Shown piece by piece: positions 32,637 through 53,217 of a stretch of DNA of 64,000 nt (its first letter is position 1; the number at the start of each line of letters is the position of its first letter). The stretch is taken from positions 1 to 64,000 of IMG/VR virus record IMGVR_UViG_3300044970_000730. One strand, written 5' to 3'. Origin of the DNA: a virus. The position numbers and the translations under genes are program-made. Below the pieces are notes generated by a model that searched no databases, was not told the origin of the DNA, and worked only from the letters and a program-made list of their open reading frames with translations.

Positions 32637-33032
32637 ATGCCCATCGTCCGCACCATCCAAAGCTTCAACGAGTTCGCCGAGTCCTTCCGTTCCATGGGAC
32701 GTGGGGATCAGTTCCAAAACCTTGAATGGCTTTATGATTACCTTGAAGAATACTCGGACAGTTGCGGAGAGCCTGTCAAGCTTGATGTAATCGCCTTGTG
32801 CTGCGAGTACACGGAAGACACATACGACTCCATCGCAGACAGCTATCCCGATATCGACATGCCCGACGAGGCCGATTACTCCGACCTTGACGAAGGCGGC
32901 GAAGTCATCGACGGCACGCTAGATGAAGAAGCCTTCGCCGAAGCTCGACGCGAAGCGATTCTAGACTATCTGCGGGATAACACTTGCGTGTGTGGGTACG
33001 ACGACGAGACGGTGCTTTATGCTCAGTTCTAA
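32637..33032 (+). CDS. Acidic hypothetical phage/plasmid-type protein
   Basis: 131 residues, strongly acidic. Features are FNEFAESFRSMGRGDQF, the central LDVIALCCEYTE, and the end YLRDNTCVCGYDDETVLYAQF. This set of phrases occurs in a common family of small uncharacterised proteins from enterobacterial and pseudomonad phages and plasmids. The acidity would fit DNA mimicry or protein inhibition, but that is speculation. Confidence 0.7.
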   Translation: MPIVRTIQSFNEFAESFRSMGRGDQFQNLEWLYDYLEEYSDSCGEPVKLDVIALCCEYTEDTYDSIADSYPDIDMPDEADYSDLDEGGEVIDGTLDEEAFAEARREAILDYLRDNTCVCGYDDETVLYAQF

Positions 33033-33048
33033 CCAAAAGGTGCCCAAC

Positions 33049-33894
33049 ATGACCACTACCACAAAGAAGCCGAAATACGTCTATGTCCTGCGCGTCAACG
33101 ACGCGGAGAACAAGTCCTGTAGAAAGACGTTCCAGTACCCGAAGAGGGGCACCGTAACTGCTCCCGACTGGAGCCCCGACCCTGTGTGTGGTGGGGGGCT
33201 CCACGGGTGGGAGAATGGCGAGGGTGACTCTTCCGTCGCAGAATGGTACGATGACGGGGTTTGGCTTGTTCTCAAAGTGCTTGAATCTGACCTTGTGCGC
33301 CTTGGCGGTAAAGTGAAGTTCAAGACCGGCACTATCGCCCACGCTGGCACCAAAGAAAGCGCAACGCGCTATATTTGGGAGAAGACAAAGGCTCCCCGTA
33401 TTATTGGGTTGGTTCTCACGGGTGGGGATTACTCCACCCTCACGGGTGGGGATCGCTCCACCCTCACGGGTGGGTATTACTCCACCCTCACGGGTGGGGA
33501 TGGTTCCACCCTCACGGGTGGGTATGGTTCCACCCTCACGGGTGGGCATCGCTCCACCCTCACGGGTGGGTATGGTTCCACCCTCACGGGTGGGCATCGC
33601 TCCACCCTCACGGGTGGGCATCGCTCCACCCTCACGGGTGGGGATTACTCCACCCTCACGGGTGGGGATGGTTCCACCCTCACGGGTGGGTATGGTTCCA
33701 CCCTCACGGGTGGGGATTACTCCACCCTCACGGGTGGGGATCGCTCCACCCTCACGGGTGGGGATCGCTCCACCCTTTGCTGGCGCGTATGGGACGGTAA
33801 CGCGAACCGTCTACACGTCCGGTACACTGGCGAGGATGGAATCGAACCGAACAAGGCTTATCGGTTCGTAAACGGTGAAGTGGTGGCTGTGTGA
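33049..33894 (+). CDS. Ice-nucleation-protein-like beta-solenoid with phage N-terminal domain
   Basis: 281 residues from the ATG at 33049. Residues 1-123 form a soluble domain with the signature CGGGLHGWENGEGD, a pattern I associate with DUF7666 (name to be verified). Residues 124-243 are 15 perfect octapeptides of form TGG-x-x-STL, where the first variable residue is D, Y or H and the second Y, R or G. Residues 244-281 have WRVWDGN, TGEDGIE and FVNGEVV, which resemble the C-terminal cap of bacterial ice-nucleation proteins (WDG ... TGE.GVE ... YVN). Those proteins also carry STLT octapeptides with TxT water-ordering motifs. No signal peptide is seen. Role unknown; ice binding or a templating surface are options. 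Confidence 0.8.
   Translation: MTTTTKKPKYVYVLRVNDAENKSCRKTFQYPKRGTVTAPDWSPDPVCGGGLHGWENGEGDSSVAEWYDDGVWLVLKVLESDLVRLGGKVKFKTGTIAHAGTKESATRYIWEKTKAPRIIGLVLTGGDYSTLTGGDRSTLTGGYYSTLTGGDGSTLTGGYGSTLTGGHRSTLTGGYGSTLTGGHRSTLTGGHRSTLTGGDYSTLTGGDGSTLTGGYGSTLTGGDYSTLTGGDRSTLTGGDRSTLCWRVWDGNANRLHVRYTGEDGIEPNKAYRFVNGEVVAV
33418..33777 (+). repeat. 15 x 24-bp in-frame tandem repeats
   Basis: Fifteen head-to-tail 24-base units encode TGGxxSTL. Between units nearly all differences fall in the two variable codons: GAT, TAT or CAT, then TAC, CGC or GGT. The last unit also ends CTT instead of CTC. Because the unit is a multiple of three, other frames stay open too and give false overlapping open frames. Confidence 0.97.
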
Positions 33895-43091: not shown

Positions 43092-43719
43092 ATGGGTAGA
43101 CCGAGGAAGTACACTGATGAGGAACGGAAACAGCGGGCGAGGGATAAGTCAAAGCGATGGCGAGAGCAGAATCCTGAGCGAGTGCGGGAGTACAACCGCA
43201 ACCGAGGAAAGGTGGCTCCCAGTAGTGGGGTATGAGGGTAGGTACGAGGTGTCTGATCTCGGCCGGGTACGTTCTTTGATCGGTGGTGTTCGTCTACTAC
43301 GCGAGTTGGACAACGGTGCAGGTTACAAGCAGTTCAGTCTGTGCCATGTAAGCGGGAAGATACACAAAGTGTACGCACACAGGGCTGTGCTTGAAGCGTT
43401 CGTCGGCCCGCGACCTCACAAGTACCACGCTTGTCACGAGGACAATGATCGCAGCAACAACTCACTGAGTAATCTTCGCTGGGACACCTGCGCAAACAAC
43501 CATGCCGACAAGCGGAAGCATGGAACCAATCCGAAGGGCGAGTCTCATATGTGGAGCAAGCTGTCTCTTGATGAGGTTCTCCAGATCAAGCGCTTGCTGA
43601 AAGAAGGCAGGTTATCCCAACCAAAGATTGCAGGCATGTTCGGTGTTCAGCAGTCGCACGTTTCCGCTATAAAGACGGGAAAGGCATGGGCTCATGTTCT
43701 CATAGAGGAGTTCCAGTAA
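43092..43719 (+). pseudogene. HNH homing endonuclease with frameshift
   Basis: The gene reads in two frames. From the ATG at 43092, with AGGAG upstream, comes MGRPRKYTDEERKQRARDKS and a basic helix, ending at a stop at 43233-43235. From about 43200 the +1 frame continues with EERWLPVVGYEGRYEVSDLG (NUMOD4), an HNH domain (YHACHEDNDRSNNSLSNLRW) and a C-terminal helix-turn-helix (LSQPKIAGMFGVQQSHVSAI), stopping at 43719. The N-terminal piece looks like the normal start of such enzymes. Either a programmed +1 shift, a real mutation or a sequence error separates the two. It cuts DNA and is a mobile intruder between replication genes. Confidence 0.75.
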
Positions 43720-44416: not shown

Positions 44417-44962
44417 ATGACCACCCTCATCCTTGACATCGAGAGTGACGGACTAATCCCCCTCATCAAGAACATTTGGCTGGTCTGCACGAAAGTAGTT
44501 GAGACGGGAGATAAGCGATCGTTTAGATCGCGGGAGGATTTCCAGCAATACGTGTCCGATCTAAACCCAACCTTAGTTGTGGGTCACAACGTTACCTTCG
44601 ATCTCGAAGCCCTCCGTCGTATATGGGGTATCGAGTACAAGTGGGACACCAAGGATTGCTCGTTCAACGGCAAGCCGGTGCGGTTTCTTGATACGCTTCA
44701 GTTGTCACAGTTTCTTAACGCGGACAGACAACCCGGGCATTCGTTGGAAGCGTGGGGAGAGGTGTTGGCAAGGGCAATCGAGGACTATGAGATGAGCACA
44801 GGAGAATCATTCGGCGACCTCTACCCCGACGACGTGAAGAAATTGAAGTTCAACGACTGGTCTAAATACTCCGATGAGATGTTGGTTTACTGTCAACGGG
44901 ACGTTGACCTGACTGGGTTGGTGTACAAGAGATTACTCAAAGAGCTAGAGGAGTACGAGTAA
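44417..44962 (+). CDS. DNA polymerase 3'-5' exonuclease domain (separate gene)
   Basis: 181 residues. It carries the DEDD exonuclease motifs: LILDIESDGL (Exo I), VGHNVTFDLEAL (Exo II) and YCQRDVDLTGLVYK (Exo III with Tyr-x3-Asp). This matches the N-terminal proofreading domain of T7 DNA polymerase. The polymerase domain is on a different gene at 45376, so proofreading probably works as a subunit in trans. Confidence 0.9.
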   Translation: MTTLILDIESDGLIPLIKNIWLVCTKVVETGDKRSFRSREDFQQYVSDLNPTLVVGHNVTFDLEALRRIWGIEYKWDTKDCSFNGKPVRFLDTLQLSQFLNADRQPGHSLEAWGEVLARAIEDYEMSTGESFGDLYPDDVKKLKFNDWSKYSDEMLVYCQRDVDLTGLVYKRLLKELEEYE

Positions 44963-45375: not shown

Positions 45376-46932
45376 TTGAAGATAAACGAGCTTCTTGAGT
45401 GGAAGCCTTACATTTGCTTCTCGATGGATTCGTATCTCACCTCGGTTCGTGGGTTCACGGGTATCGGGTTCAACAAAGAACGCGCTGAAGGGTTGCTTGT
45501 CCGGATCGAAGGAGAGATGACGGAGATTGAGCAAACCATCGAGCCACAACTACCTCCCCGGCCTTTGAACAAAGGAGAGCTAGACAAGTATCGGTTCCCA
45601 GCCAAGCCGTTTAAGAAGGACGGGTCGCTGTCCAGTTCGATGGTGAACTGGATGGAACGTCTCGGAGCAAAGCTCCACACGGAGCGGGACATCTTGTTGG
45701 AAGGTAACGTGTACCCGATCAAAGGAGGCGAGCCAACCATCATCACTGGACCTATGCGCCTAGCTAATCAGGATGATCTCAAGAACTTCCTTATCGCCGA
45801 GGGGTGGGTGCCGACCCTTTTCAATTTCAAGCGGGACGAACGAGGGAAGCCAGCTCGTGACGAGAAAGGAAACATCATCCTCACTACCCCTAAACTCCAA
45901 GAGAACGGTCGCCTATGTCCGAACCTTGAAGAGATGGCAGGTGATCTGGTACGTCCTGTGGTTCGCTGGCTTAGCCTACGCAACCGCAAATCTGTGATTG
46001 AAGGGTGGCTCGGGAACGAGCGGCTTGCGTACGACGGTCGGTTGAGTGCTGGTGCTAGTGGGTATACACCTACGTTTCGGAAGCGGCACTCTGTTGTCAC
46101 GAATCTCCCCAAGGCGGACGGTAAGGTACTCTATGGCGTAGAGGTTCGCTCTCTCTTCTGCGCAAAGCGACCGGGCTACACGATGGTTGGGTTCGATGCG
46201 TCTGGACTTGAAGCCCGGGTGGAGGCGCACTTCACCAGCATCTACGAAGGCGGGCAGGAGTACGCTCGTGAGTTGATCGAGGGGGACATCCACCTTAAGA
46301 CCGCAGAGAAGATGTTTGCCGATAAGATCGGCCACTTGTTCGGACACCCTGACTATAGTAAGGACCACCCCGAGGTAAAAACTTGGCGTAACAAGGCGAA
46401 GACTGTTCGCTACGCGAGCGCCTACGGAGCTTCAGCTAAGAAGCTGGCAGCTACTCTCGGGGAATCCCAGCAACGCGGTGAGCAAATCTTCAACGACTTC
46501 TGGGAAGCTGCTGCGCCGCTTGCAAAGTTCAAGGAGAGGTTGACCCAGCATTGGGAAACACAGGGTAAGGAGCGGATCAAGGGTCTTGATGGTAGGTGGG
46601 TACGTACCCGGAGCAAACATTCGTTGGTGAACACCGCCCAACAGTCGGCCGGCGCGATAATTTTTCAGGTGACAACCTTGTTCTTGCATAAATGGTTGGA
46701 CGGCCTAGTGCTTGACAACGACAACAACCTTGCCTATACTTTCCAGTCCCGGTTCATCTATCCTCTTTCTGAGGTTCACGATGAACAATGCTGGGAGGTG
46801 CCGGAAGAAGTAGCCGAGGACTTTGGCAAGCTGGCAGAGAAGGCGCTCGAAGCAGCAGGTAAGTACCTGAAGGTTCGGGTTCCGATTGTTGGTGAGGCTA
46901 AGGCGGGGAGGTCGTGGGATTTGATCCACTAG
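45376..46932 (+). CDS. Family A DNA polymerase, polymerase domain only
   Basis: 518 residues from a TTG start with GAGGAG upstream. Motif A is GFDASGLEARV, motif B RNKAKTVRYASAYG, motif C EVHDEQCWEV, all as in T7 gp5. The 3'-5' exonuclease domain is missing from this chain and lies in the gene at 44417-44962. The gene ends GRSWDLIH, followed by an HNH gene. It replicates phage DNA; whether it uses host thioredoxin is not visible. Confidence 0.93.
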   Translation: MKINELLEWKPYICFSMDSYLTSVRGFTGIGFNKERAEGLLVRIEGEMTEIEQTIEPQLPPRPLNKGELDKYRFPAKPFKKDGSLSSSMVNWMERLGAKLHTERDILLEGNVYPIKGGEPTIITGPMRLANQDDLKNFLIAEGWVPTLFNFKRDERGKPARDEKGNIILTTPKLQENGRLCPNLEEMAGDLVRPVVRWLSLRNRKSVIEGWLGNERLAYDGRLSAGASGYTPTFRKRHSVVTNLPKADGKVLYGVEVRSLFCAKRPGYTMVGFDASGLEARVEAHFTSIYEGGQEYARELIEGDIHLKTAEKMFADKIGHLFGHPDYSKDHPEVKTWRNKAKTVRYASAYGASAKKLAATLGESQQRGEQIFNDFWEAAAPLAKFKERLTQHWETQGKERIKGLDGRWVRTRSKHSLVNTAQQSAGAIIFQVTTLFLHKWLDGLVLDNDNNLAYTFQSRFIYPLSEVHDEQCWEVPEEVAEDFGKLAEKALEAAGKYLKVRVPIVGEAKAGRSWDLIH

Positions 46933-46949
46933 TTTTGACAAGGAGTTAT

Positions 46950-47456
46950 ATGACTGGAGAGTTGACTCAAGAGAGGTTGAAGGAAGTTATGCATTACGAC
47001 CCGGAGACGGGTCTATTTATATGGAAAGTGTCAGCACCTCCGAACGGAAAGATAGGTAGTGTTGCAGGCTACACACGCAAGGATGGAAGATGTGTGATCG
47101 GTTTTAAGGGCGAGCTGTACCTTAGATCGAGGCTTGCATTTTTGTATATGGAGGGGTTCTTTCCGCAAGAAAGCGTTGACCACATTAATAGGATTACATC
47201 AGACGATAGGTGGTCTAACTTACGATCCGTCTCTCAAAGAGAGAACCTCAGTAACACCGGGCTGAGAAGTAACAACAAGTCCGGGTACAAAGGCGTCTCA
47301 TTCCACGCAGAGAAAGGTAAGTGGGGAGCTGCGATAAAGACAAGAGAAGGGAAAATATTCCTTGGCTACTACAGTGACCCGCTGCACGCTGCACATGAAT
47401 ACAACAAAGCCGCTGTCAAGTACTTCGGTGAGTTCGCTGTACTCAACCCAATCTAA
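46950..47456 (+). CDS. HNH endonuclease with AP2 domain
   Basis: 168 residues from an ATG with AAGGAG. The N-terminal segment (HYDPETGLFIWKVSA) leads to an HNH_3-type core (VDHINRITSDDRWSNLRSVS) and a C-terminal AP2-like DNA-binding domain (SGYKGVSFHAEKGKWGAAIK). A free-standing homing endonuclease placed directly after the polymerase gene, probably a selfish insertion that cuts phages lacking it. Confidence 0.88.
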   Translation: MTGELTQERLKEVMHYDPETGLFIWKVSAPPNGKIGSVAGYTRKDGRCVIGFKGELYLRSRLAFLYMEGFFPQESVDHINRITSDDRWSNLRSVSQRENLSNTGLRSNNKSGYKGVSFHAEKGKWGAAIKTREGKIFLGYYSDPLHAAHEYNKAAVKYFGEFAVLNPI

Positions 47457-50013: not shown

Positions 50014-50985
50014 ATGACGAGGATCATGCAGCCAAAGTCAACGTACACAGTTGACTACCCCGAGGCAATCGAGTTCACTAACAAGCAGGTGTCTATCTTC
50101 TGGCCACCTGACGAGATCAAGGTTGAAAAGGATGTCCACGACATCCGTGTTGAGATGACTGAGGCTGAGCGTCACGGTGTGTTGAGTACGCTCAAGCTGT
50201 TTACCATGTACGAGTTGATTGTGGGTGGTGAGTATTGGGGTGAGAAGGTGTTCAACATGTTCCCTCGCCCTGACATTCAGCGTATGGCTAATTGCTTTTC
50301 CTTCTACGAGTTGAACATCCATGCTCCGTTCTACGCCAAGATCAACGAGGCTTTGAACCTAGCAAACGATGAGTTCTACACGGATTACTTGAAAGACCCG
50401 GTGTTGAAGGAACGGATCGAATCACTTGAAGCAGCTGCTTCCCTTGGTCCTTTGCACTTTCTTGTGACTCTTGGTGTTACTGAGGGTGTAATTCTGTACT
50501 CGTCGTTTGCTTTTCTCAAGCACTTCCAAGCCAAGGGCAAGAACAAGCTGTTGAACATTGTGCGAGGTATCAACTTCTCGGCACGAGACGAGGCCCTTCA
50601 CTCCGAAGCATCGGCTTGGTTGTTCCGTACACTTTGCGCAGAGTCTGGCACTCCCCCGGCAGCAATGACCTTTGTTGCGTATCCGATTGTTGAATCTGCT
50701 GTTGAGCACGAGAAGAAGATCGCTGCCAAGATTTTCGAGAAGGGAGAGATCGACGGTATCACCCAGAAGCAGCTTGAAAACTTCATCGAGAGCCGGGCTG
50801 ATGTAGTTCTGCGTAACTTCGGGATGGCTCCTCTCTACAACGTGGAGTACAACCCCATTGGTGAGTGGTTCTATCGGGGGATCAACGGGTACATGGCTAA
50901 TGACTTCTTCACCGGAATGGGTCGAGAGTACACCCGCTCATGGGATGCAAGCAGCTTTAAGTGGGAGGCACAAGAACAAGAATGA
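50014..50985 (+). CDS. nrdB: Ribonucleotide reductase class I beta subunit
   Basis: 323 residues. The diiron-type helices are visible: FYELNIHAPFY (Glu and His ligands), TEGVILYSSFAFL, and RDEALHSEAS. C-terminal EAQEQE is short. The subunit supplies the radical to NrdA, with which it overlaps as ATGA. Together they make deoxynucleotides for replication. The preceding terminator means it has its own promoter or reads from one I did not find. Confidence 0.92.
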   Translation: MTRIMQPKSTYTVDYPEAIEFTNKQVSIFWPPDEIKVEKDVHDIRVEMTEAERHGVLSTLKLFTMYELIVGGEYWGEKVFNMFPRPDIQRMANCFSFYELNIHAPFYAKINEALNLANDEFYTDYLKDPVLKERIESLEAAASLGPLHFLVTLGVTEGVILYSSFAFLKHFQAKGKNKLLNIVRGINFSARDEALHSEASAWLFRTLCAESGTPPAAMTFVAYPIVESAVEHEKKIAAKIFEKGEIDGITQKQLENFIESRADVVLRNFGMAPLYNVEYNPIGEWFYRGINGYMANDFFTGMGREYTRSWDASSFKWEAQEQE

Positions 50986-52670
50986 GCGGGCACTACGACG
51001 CAACCAAACAAGAGAAGAAGAAGATGCAAGGGCTGGGTCTTGTCCCTGAGTGGATGAGTACCCCCGGCTACCAGCTGTTCAAATCAAAGTATCTCCACCA
51101 CAAGGACAACTTCTACGGCCAAGCCCGTCTGATCGCGCAGACTCTTGCAAAGCACAGTCCCGACTACCACTACTACGCGGAGGAGTTCTTTCAGCTTATT
51201 TGGAAGGGGTGGTTGTCTTGCTCCACTCCTGTACTGGCTAACACGGGAACTGATCGCGGTCTTCCGGTGTCGTGCTCAGGTCAGTACGTACCTGACTCTA
51301 TCGAGGGGTTCTATGAGTCCCGTAAGGAAGCCGCCATCCTGACTAAGCACGGGTTTGGTACGTCAGGCTACCTTGGCGACATCCGCCCACGAGGCGCTCC
51401 AATCTCCGTAGGAGGCAAGGCAAGCGGCACCCTGCCCGAGATCAAGGGTTTCGTGCAAGTCTCCCGTGATGTCTCTCAGGGCGGTGTGCGTCGAGGTTCG
51501 TTTGCCTCGTACCTTCCGATGGATCACGGTGACTTCTGGGAAGTGGTGCATCACCTTGAGAGCAATCCCGATGATTTGAACCTTGGGTGGAATATCTCGG
51601 ACAGTTTCCTCAAGAGGCTTCGTTCCGGTGAACCTGAGGCAGTAGCTCGTTATCAGGAAGCCTTGAAGGTCAAGATGATCACGGGAAAGGGGTACTTCTT
51701 CTTTCCTGACAAGGCCAACCGACGATTGCCTGAACCGTACAAGAAGTTCCACAAGAAGGTCCACGCATCTAACCTTTGCTCTGAGATCATCCTTCCGAGC
51801 GATGAGCAGCACACGTTTACGTGTGTCTTGTCCTCCATGAACCTGAGCCGGTGGGATGAGTGGAAGGACACCAACGCAGTCCAGATTGCCACGGTGTTCC
51901 TTGATTGTGTGGCGTCTGAGTTCATTGCCAAGGCCAAGAACATCACGGGTCTTGACCGGGCTGTAGCTTTCACGGAGAAGGCTCGTGCCCTTGGCTTGGG
52001 TGCTTGTGGGTTCCACACGTACCTTCAGATGAAGGGTGTTCCGTTCGAGAGTCTTGACGCGATGTACCTTAACCACGACTTCTTCTCGCACATCAAGCAA
52101 GAGTCAGACAAGGCTACGCGGTACTTGGCCGAAGAGCTTGGTGAGCCAGAGTGGTGCAAAGGGTTTGGTGTTCGTAACGCTTCTCTTCGTGCAGTAGCCC
52201 CTACCAAGAGCACTGCTCTTATCATGGGCGGTATCTCGGAGGGTATTAATCCTGACCCAGCGATGATCTACAATCAGGCTACGGCAGCTGGCGAGGTTGA
52301 TCGAATCAACCCGGTGCTGTACGAGATGATGAAGGAACGCGGTGTCTACAACAAGCGAGAGATCAACAAGGTCATTGACGACTTCGGTTCAGTGAAGGGT
52401 GTTGACTGGCTGAGTGATTCCGAGAAGGAAGTATTCAAAACTGCCTTTGAGATCGGGCAGGGCAGCGTGGTGCGTCTGGCTTCCAGCCGTGCTCGTTACC
52501 TTGACCAGTGGCAAAGCGTCAACCTGTTCTTTGCGGGTAACGCACCTCCGGAGTACATCTCGCAAGTTCACCAGATGGCGTTCGAGGATGAGAACATGTT
52601 GGCGCTGTACTACGTGTATTCATCTTCAGGCGTAGGTGCCTCGAAGGATGAGTGTGTTGCGTGCATGTAG
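50982..52670 (+). CDS. nrdA: Ribonucleotide reductase class I alpha subunit
   Basis: 562 residues from the ATG overlapping nrdB. Key segments are SCSTPVLANTGT, the active-site NLCSEI (Asn-x-Cys-x-Glu), CVLSSMNLS and the C-terminal redox pair CVACM. It is shorter than typical cellular NrdA (about 750), lacking an obvious N-terminal ATP-cone, so allosteric control may be reduced. It reduces ribonucleotides in the cytoplasm. Confidence 0.92.
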   Translation: MSGHYDATKQEKKKMQGLGLVPEWMSTPGYQLFKSKYLHHKDNFYGQARLIAQTLAKHSPDYHYYAEEFFQLIWKGWLSCSTPVLANTGTDRGLPVSCSGQYVPDSIEGFYESRKEAAILTKHGFGTSGYLGDIRPRGAPISVGGKASGTLPEIKGFVQVSRDVSQGGVRRGSFASYLPMDHGDFWEVVHHLESNPDDLNLGWNISDSFLKRLRSGEPEAVARYQEALKVKMITGKGYFFFPDKANRRLPEPYKKFHKKVHASNLCSEIILPSDEQHTFTCVLSSMNLSRWDEWKDTNAVQIATVFLDCVASEFIAKAKNITGLDRAVAFTEKARALGLGACGFHTYLQMKGVPFESLDAMYLNHDFFSHIKQESDKATRYLAEELGEPEWCKGFGVRNASLRAVAPTKSTALIMGGISEGINPDPAMIYNQATAAGEVDRINPVLYEMMKERGVYNKREINKVIDDFGSVKGVDWLSDSEKEVFKTAFEIGQGSVVRLASSRARYLDQWQSVNLFFAGNAPPEYISQVHQMAFEDENMLALYYVYSSSGVGASKDECVACM

Positions 52671-52678
52671 CGCTCTTC

Positions 52679-52692
52679 GCCCCTAGCGGGGC
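52679..52692. repeat. Inverted repeat GCCCC-TAGC-GGGGC abutting a -35 box
   Basis: A perfect 14-base repeat directly followed by TTGACA at 52693. Same geometry and TAGC centre as at 29540 (minus strand) but different arms. Confidence 0.7.
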
Positions 52693-52721
52693 TTGACACA
52701 CCCCTGTTAACTGAGTAAAGT
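52693..52721 (+). promoter_or_regulatory. Sigma70 promoter upstream of a non-coding region
   Basis: TTGACA (52693-52698), 17 bases, TAAAGT (52716-52721), 6/6 and 4/6 to consensus. The next gene starts about 270 bases downstream, so the transcript has a long non-coding part. Confidence 0.68.
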
Positions 52722-52727
52722 TGTTTC

Positions 52728-52945
52728 CGAAGCACCGAGAGAGACGCTCAAACCGCGAGGCCGTAGTTGCCGAGCAAGCCTATCCCTCGGTAAAAGGGCG
52801 GGAACGCTAGGACTTCTGGACGTATCCGGGGGACGCGCACCTAGCTAGTACCGCCCCGCTTCACCCCGCCCCGGATTGACTGACTCCGAGTCTATAACGG
52901 CGCAGTAGTAACCCTAGTTCGACGATGAGGACTAGGCCGAGCCTG
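52728..52945 (+). ncRNA. Candidate structured RNA or long regulatory leader
   Basis: Nested helices are visible: GGGCGG (52796-52801) with CCGCCC (52851-52856); inside it GCTAGG (52806-52811) with CCTAGC (52840-52845); inside that CTGGA-CGTA-TCCGG (52816-52829). Further hairpins are GACT-CCG-AGTC at about 52882-52892 and CCTAGT/ACTAGG (52913-52918 with 52931-52936). No credible coding frame is present. It starts at a promoter. It may be a free RNA or a 5' leader of the gene at 52999. Confidence 0.5.
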
Positions 52946-52998
52946 TGGGGCACTCACGTCAATCACCTCTTAACCAATACACCCCGGAGGGGTTGTGT

Positions 52999-53217
52999 AT
53001 GCAAAAGCCAGAGCCACCGCAGTATCGTTCTGCGGGCGACATTGAGGTTCTCCACCCTGAGCTTAAAAAAGGGTGTTGGTTGTATCTACGTTGTGACGGA
53101 GGCGATGGTTTGTCTGTGTGGTCTATCGAAGAAGCCGAGATGCTTATCTTCGCCCTTCAAGAATGGATCGAGTACAAGCGTCAGCTTGAGAAGTGGGAAC
53201 GGGAGAACAAAGAATGA
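52999..53217 (+). CDS. Small hypothetical protein
   Basis: 72 residues from the ATG at 52999 with GGAGGGG upstream. It has LKKGCWLYLRCDGGDGLSVW and a helical end (FALQEWIEYKRQLEKWE). It is the first gene after the candidate RNA. Unknown function. Confidence 0.62.
   Translation: MQKPEPPQYRSAGDIEVLHPELKKGCWLYLRCDGGDGLSVWSIEEAEMLIFALQEWIEYKRQLEKWERENKE

Follow-up and report, generated by a model that had tools for sequence, protein, structure and literature searches.

The question raised by this locus is what lies behind a promoter that is not directly followed by a plausible gene. The window analysed here comprises 64,000 nucleotides of a 64,166-base virus record, whose genes include those for NrdB, NrdA, DNA polymerase, primase/helicase, thymidylate synthase and terminase; judged by terminase, Stenotrophomonas phage StenR_269 is the top-scoring annotated phage (46% identity). 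On the + strand nrdA (50961-52670) reaches its stop at 52670, and is followed by a sigma-70-type promoter, TTGACA-N17-TAAAGT (52693-52721), and then by 271 nt, counted from the expected start site, in which the + strand holds no plausible gene. Several small genes begin at the ATG at 52999, and the product of the first (52999-53217, MQKPEPP...) has no match in Pfam or PHROGs. A first-pass annotation had read the segment as promoter-driven, highly structured and non-coding, possibly a small regulatory RNA or a long leader; the promoter that it proposed is nearly identical in the relatives described below, with a spacer that is almost unchanged. A hairpin, GCCCCTAGCGGGGC, with no T-run after it, also occurs between nrdA and the promoter (52677-52692); it is found in the relatives L001 and L002, and is absent from L003, L142 and L152.

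Folding energy alone does not demonstrate a structure in this segment. Taken whole, it is no exceptional fold, being no better than its shuffles (z = -0.41, with 69 of 200 shuffles as stable), and its first part, which we call element A (52728-52862, + strand), has a fold energy z of -1.49. The structure is demonstrated by comparison. Near relatives L001-L003 were obtained from a NrdA scan of viral contigs, and L142/L153 and L152 were added by sequence-motif and downstream-exonuclease scans; in all of them the promoter is shared, and the same helices recur after it in different letters. Our alignment, A5, consists of five distinct sequences (the window and four from uncultured relatives) with three types of tip. 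When this alignment is read against a three-way-junction structure, all 155 pair cells are standard pairs, and six pairs, three in helix P3 and three in helix P4, change on both sides. The covariation score is 0.287, versus 0.185 (sd 0.026) in shuffles, none of 500 being as high, although the shuffles leave relatedness uncorrected; slid structures, a control that keeps relatedness, pair only 30-53% of cells and never show more than one doubly changed pair. RNAalifold recovers the same core unaided. Conservation of paired positions in relatives, which had been proposed as the check on this structure, is thus what we find, with no broken pair. Among the five sequences helix P0 is without variation, as are most of P1 and P2, and these helices are compatible with the structure rather than proven.

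Comparative analysis shows element A, which scores 145.5 bits in the window with model R1, to be a + strand three-way junction of about 135 nt, with a near-constant core and a hypervariable P1 tip. It consists of P0, P1 and a P2-P3-P4 arm, and its 5' end is expected at 52727-52729 from the spacing to the -10 box. The closing helix P0 pairs GAAGC (52729-52733) with GCTTC (52858-52862) in five of five sequences, without variation, and would join the expected transcription start to the 3' end of the element, closing the molecule. P1 is formed in all five by ACCGAG (52734-52739) and CTCGGT (52786-52791), with one pair that is GC, GU or AU, and carries the tip (52740-52785), which is 46 nt long in the window and 46-55 nt in relatives. 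In the remaining arm, P2 (GGGCGG, 52796-52801, with CCGCCC, 52851-52856) leads through an invariant internal loop, GAAC (52802-52805) facing TAGTA (52846-52850), to P3 (GCTAGG, 52806-52811, with CCTAGC, 52840-52845), and from there through a second loop, in which a single A faces the conserved AYGCGCA (52833-52839), to the P4 hairpin CTTCTGGA-CGTA-TCCGGGGG (52813-52832; arms 52813-52820 and 52825-52832). P4 is 8 bp long in the window, 9 in L001 and 13 in L152, and both internal loops are of fixed sequence in the alignment. We take the GAAC opposite AGUA to resemble the bulged-G (loop E) motif, as a lead only. The three nested helices of the first-pass annotation (P2, P3 and P4) lie where it had placed them and are backed by the comparison; P0 and P1 had been overlooked.

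The same alignment bears on whether the structure could have arisen by chance, or consist of inverted repeats acting at the level of DNA. The ordinary fold energy of the single sequence would allow it, but the compensatory changes and the lack of any broken pair speak against this explanation, which we find scarcely credible. Furthermore, 19 of the 155 cells are G-U pairs, which become mismatches on the other strand, so that only 136 of 155 cells would pair there; therefore the structure is that of a + strand RNA and not of a DNA palindrome. A coding reading of element A was rejected as well, as there is no + strand ORF of at least 30 aa within 52728-52862, in agreement with the earlier view that the segment holds no plausible gene.

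Catalogued RNA families do not account for element A. With the Rfam 15 covariance models at gathering score only tRNAs are found in the window; the best match within the segment is a chance hit (E 8.3), and L001 is likewise without a family, just as inspection by eye had failed to recognise tmRNA, RNase P, 6S RNA or a riboswitch. On this evidence element A is a real, uncharacterised new RNA that matches no catalogued family, and since it is absent from Rfam, standard annotation would miss such an RNA. A riboswitch or attenuator for the first small gene would suit a gene preceded by a long, structured leader whose internal loops are invariant; it is nevertheless improbable, given that no Rfam aptamer is matched and that the distance from element A to the gene ranges from about 50 nt (L152) to more than 350 nt (L001), with unrelated blocks between.

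Element A is present as a single copy in seven of the seven clade records that cover the locus, and is by this count a fixed, clade-specific feature of this phage clade. Its promoter is conserved although the reductase gene upstream, which ends 3-22 nt 5' of it, has been replaced: the slot holds class I NrdAB in the window and in L001-L003, a class II reductase in L142 and a different class II enzyme in L152. At this slot (window 50014-52670; L142 4610-6634; L152 2977-5049; L155 2253-4163) enzymes of non-homologous classes have repeatedly replaced one another among close relatives. In the more distant L155 the corresponding place (L155 4187-4490) has a promoter of this type, TTGACA-N17-TAAATT, and then some 270 nt of non-coding DNA that neither resembles element A nor is matched by its model or by any Rfam family. 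In StenR_269 a 4-nt overlap between the reductase gene and the one after it leaves no room for element A.

Wider searches yielded little more. Distant blastn against annotated phages and plasmids returned nothing beyond nrdA and one weak match, in the terminator region of L001. Loose motif matches in viral contigs were many and almost all due to chance, and tighter motifs gained L152/L147 plus chance matches; the exact motif gave 31 matches in a GTDB-based genome collection, none scoring as element A, and when 369 genomes were searched with the covariance model, the single weak match lay in a long protein-coding frame and was taken as chance. Motif scans detect only sequences that keep the fixed loops, and distant relatives may exist.

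A promoter followed by a structured transcript is also the arrangement of the replication primer RNA II of plasmid ColE1, and the transcript could by analogy prime replication, or the DNA be an origin. This is very unlikely here: the cumulative GC skew does not turn around 52.7 kb, on which ground an origin was rejected, and L155, in which no element A is detected, shares the location close to where the replication genes end.

Downstream, element A heads a slot in which two blocks, B and C, and terminators come and go. It is followed by a short leader only in L152, by block B in L003 and L142, by block C alone in the window, by terminators and C in L002, and by B, terminators and C in L001. 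What had been described as a single segment comprises two modules, A (52728-52862) and C (52869-52964), because relatives have A without C, or other DNA between them. Block C (+ strand), shared with L001 and L002, is closed by a GATTGAC/GTCAATC helix and has a hairpin whose length varies, as well as a possible crossing helix, GCCCC/GGGGC; its pairs are almost invariant and the crossing helices are consistent, so that its structure is unproven and a pseudoknot is possible, as a lead and not a result. The two further hairpins of the first-pass annotation belong to this block: that at 52882-52892 is not conserved, being broken in each of the two relatives with C, while that at 52913/52936 is kept, its five tested pairs never varying and thus lending it no covariation support. 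Block B (L001 6910-7010, L003 2620-2718, L142 6820-6918), nearly identical in the three, does not occur in the window; it is closed by a TGGCATAC/GTATGCCA helix and may contain a crossing helix, CGGGT/ACCCG. Both blocks look structured, from distinct sequences too few for covariation.

The terminators bear more directly on what element A may do. In L001 and L002 the first gene is separated from A by a terminator pair, and this interval yielded no further promoter-like site; the first L001 terminator, located 3' of A and B, is strong (-29.8 kcal/mol, z = -3.40) and leads into a run of six T. Such a pair argues for either a separate RNA or an antiterminator. In the latter case element A would be a cis-acting leader that acts on its own polymerase or mRNA, as a put-like processive antiterminator or as a 5' stabiliser, and so permits expression of the small-gene operon from 53.0 kb; the put-like form is the most specific one, because terminators lie between A and the gene in L001 and L002. 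The putRNA of HK022 is about 70 nt long with two stem-loops, its site putL is just downstream of PL, and RNAs of this type, located on early transcripts close to the promoter, suppress pausing and termination via the beta-prime zinc-binding domain of RNA polymerase (PMC9378689). Element A is comparable in that it begins close to a host-type promoter and is a phage RNA predicted to fold where the transcript starts or nearby, with terminators downstream in two relatives, and the same small-gene family follows it in all relatives. It differs in size and shape (a junction of about 135 nt), in being present as one copy per genome, and in its hypervariable tip, which would be unexpected for an RNA that binds a conserved RNA polymerase; moreover, most versions have no terminator to read through. 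We regard a cis-acting leader as a possibility to be taken seriously, albeit a minority one.

Promoter and scaffold are nearly constant, and from the 3' arm of P1 onward the types are at least 79% alike, versus 38-46% in the tip. Comparing the window with L001, the end of nrdA is 94% alike, the stretch from inside element A to about 53.6 kb is 39-68% alike in 100-base steps, and similarity returns to 93-98% at 53.64-54.54 kb; the tip has been replaced between close relatives whose flanking genes are nearly identical, and the site, judged from this comparison, is an exchange hot spot around a fixed promoter and RNA core. An antisense action on the phage's own genome was rejected, since no target of the tip was found there (10 of 100 shuffles match as well on the + strand and 38 of 100 on the - strand).

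We favour, over a cis-acting (put-like) leader, an autonomous non-coding RNA of the phage, of which element A would form the 5' part; its core would dock on a conserved partner, and its tip would meet one that changes fast. Our confidence in this reading is just short of even. Its own promoter, its lack of coding capacity and the conservation of its structure at the RNA level are the properties expected of a phage small non-coding RNA; P0, the covariation, the strand-specific wobble pairs, the contrast between tip and core and the strong L001 terminator all point the same way. Against it, the window and L152 have no terminator-like site before the first gene, as would be the case for a leader, no target of the tip is found in the phage's own genome, and the covariation comes from P3 and P4 in five related sequences only. 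The earlier proposal, a regulatory RNA of small size or else a long leader, is partly supported: the structure is conserved as RNA and lies outside the Rfam families.

On the favoured reading, host RNA polymerase would transcribe element A from its own sigma-70-type promoter (a search with PF00940, phage RNA polymerase, found no match, but as its controls matched nothing either it does not bear on this point), and the product would act as a molecule in its own right. The paired 5' end would protect the RNA; the constant core, with its GAAC/AGUA and AYGCGCA loops, would be the docking site for a conserved protein or RNA-protein complex; and the fast-changing partner that meets the exchangeable tip would be, for example, a factor of host defence or an RNA target. 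Termination would produce the 3' end in L001 and L002, and processing elsewhere. A bolder and rather doubtful extension is that of an RNA family with a constant scaffold and an exchangeable recognition tip, which heads a cassette of structured RNAs (B, C), counters host defence or targets RNA, and changes specificity by tip swap. If the pattern does reflect a fast-changing partner, pull-down, read-through and defence assays would have in element A a defined object of 135 nt.

Few RNAs of virulent phages have been characterised, and element A would be a compact one with a conserved three-way-junction core. The closest descriptions are those of sRNA1 and sRNA2 of the virulent Pseudomonas phage PAK_P3, intergenic non-coding RNAs of about 100 nt observed by RNA-seq, with function unknown (PMC4933390). 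Element A is known from sequence alone and is likened to these intergenic RNAs by description, similarity in the annotated-phage search being limited to nrdA. Stable RNAs of a virulent phage that have no known role are likened to it in the same manner, element A having no similarity to phage records at the blastn sensitivity used.

Elsewhere in the window, two ORFs (43117-43719 and 46914-47456) have the look of possible HNH-type endonucleases and lie near DNA polymerase-related ORFs (44417-44962 and 45376-46932), and the ORF at 32992-33894 has a tandem GG(D/Y)xSTLTGG repeat.
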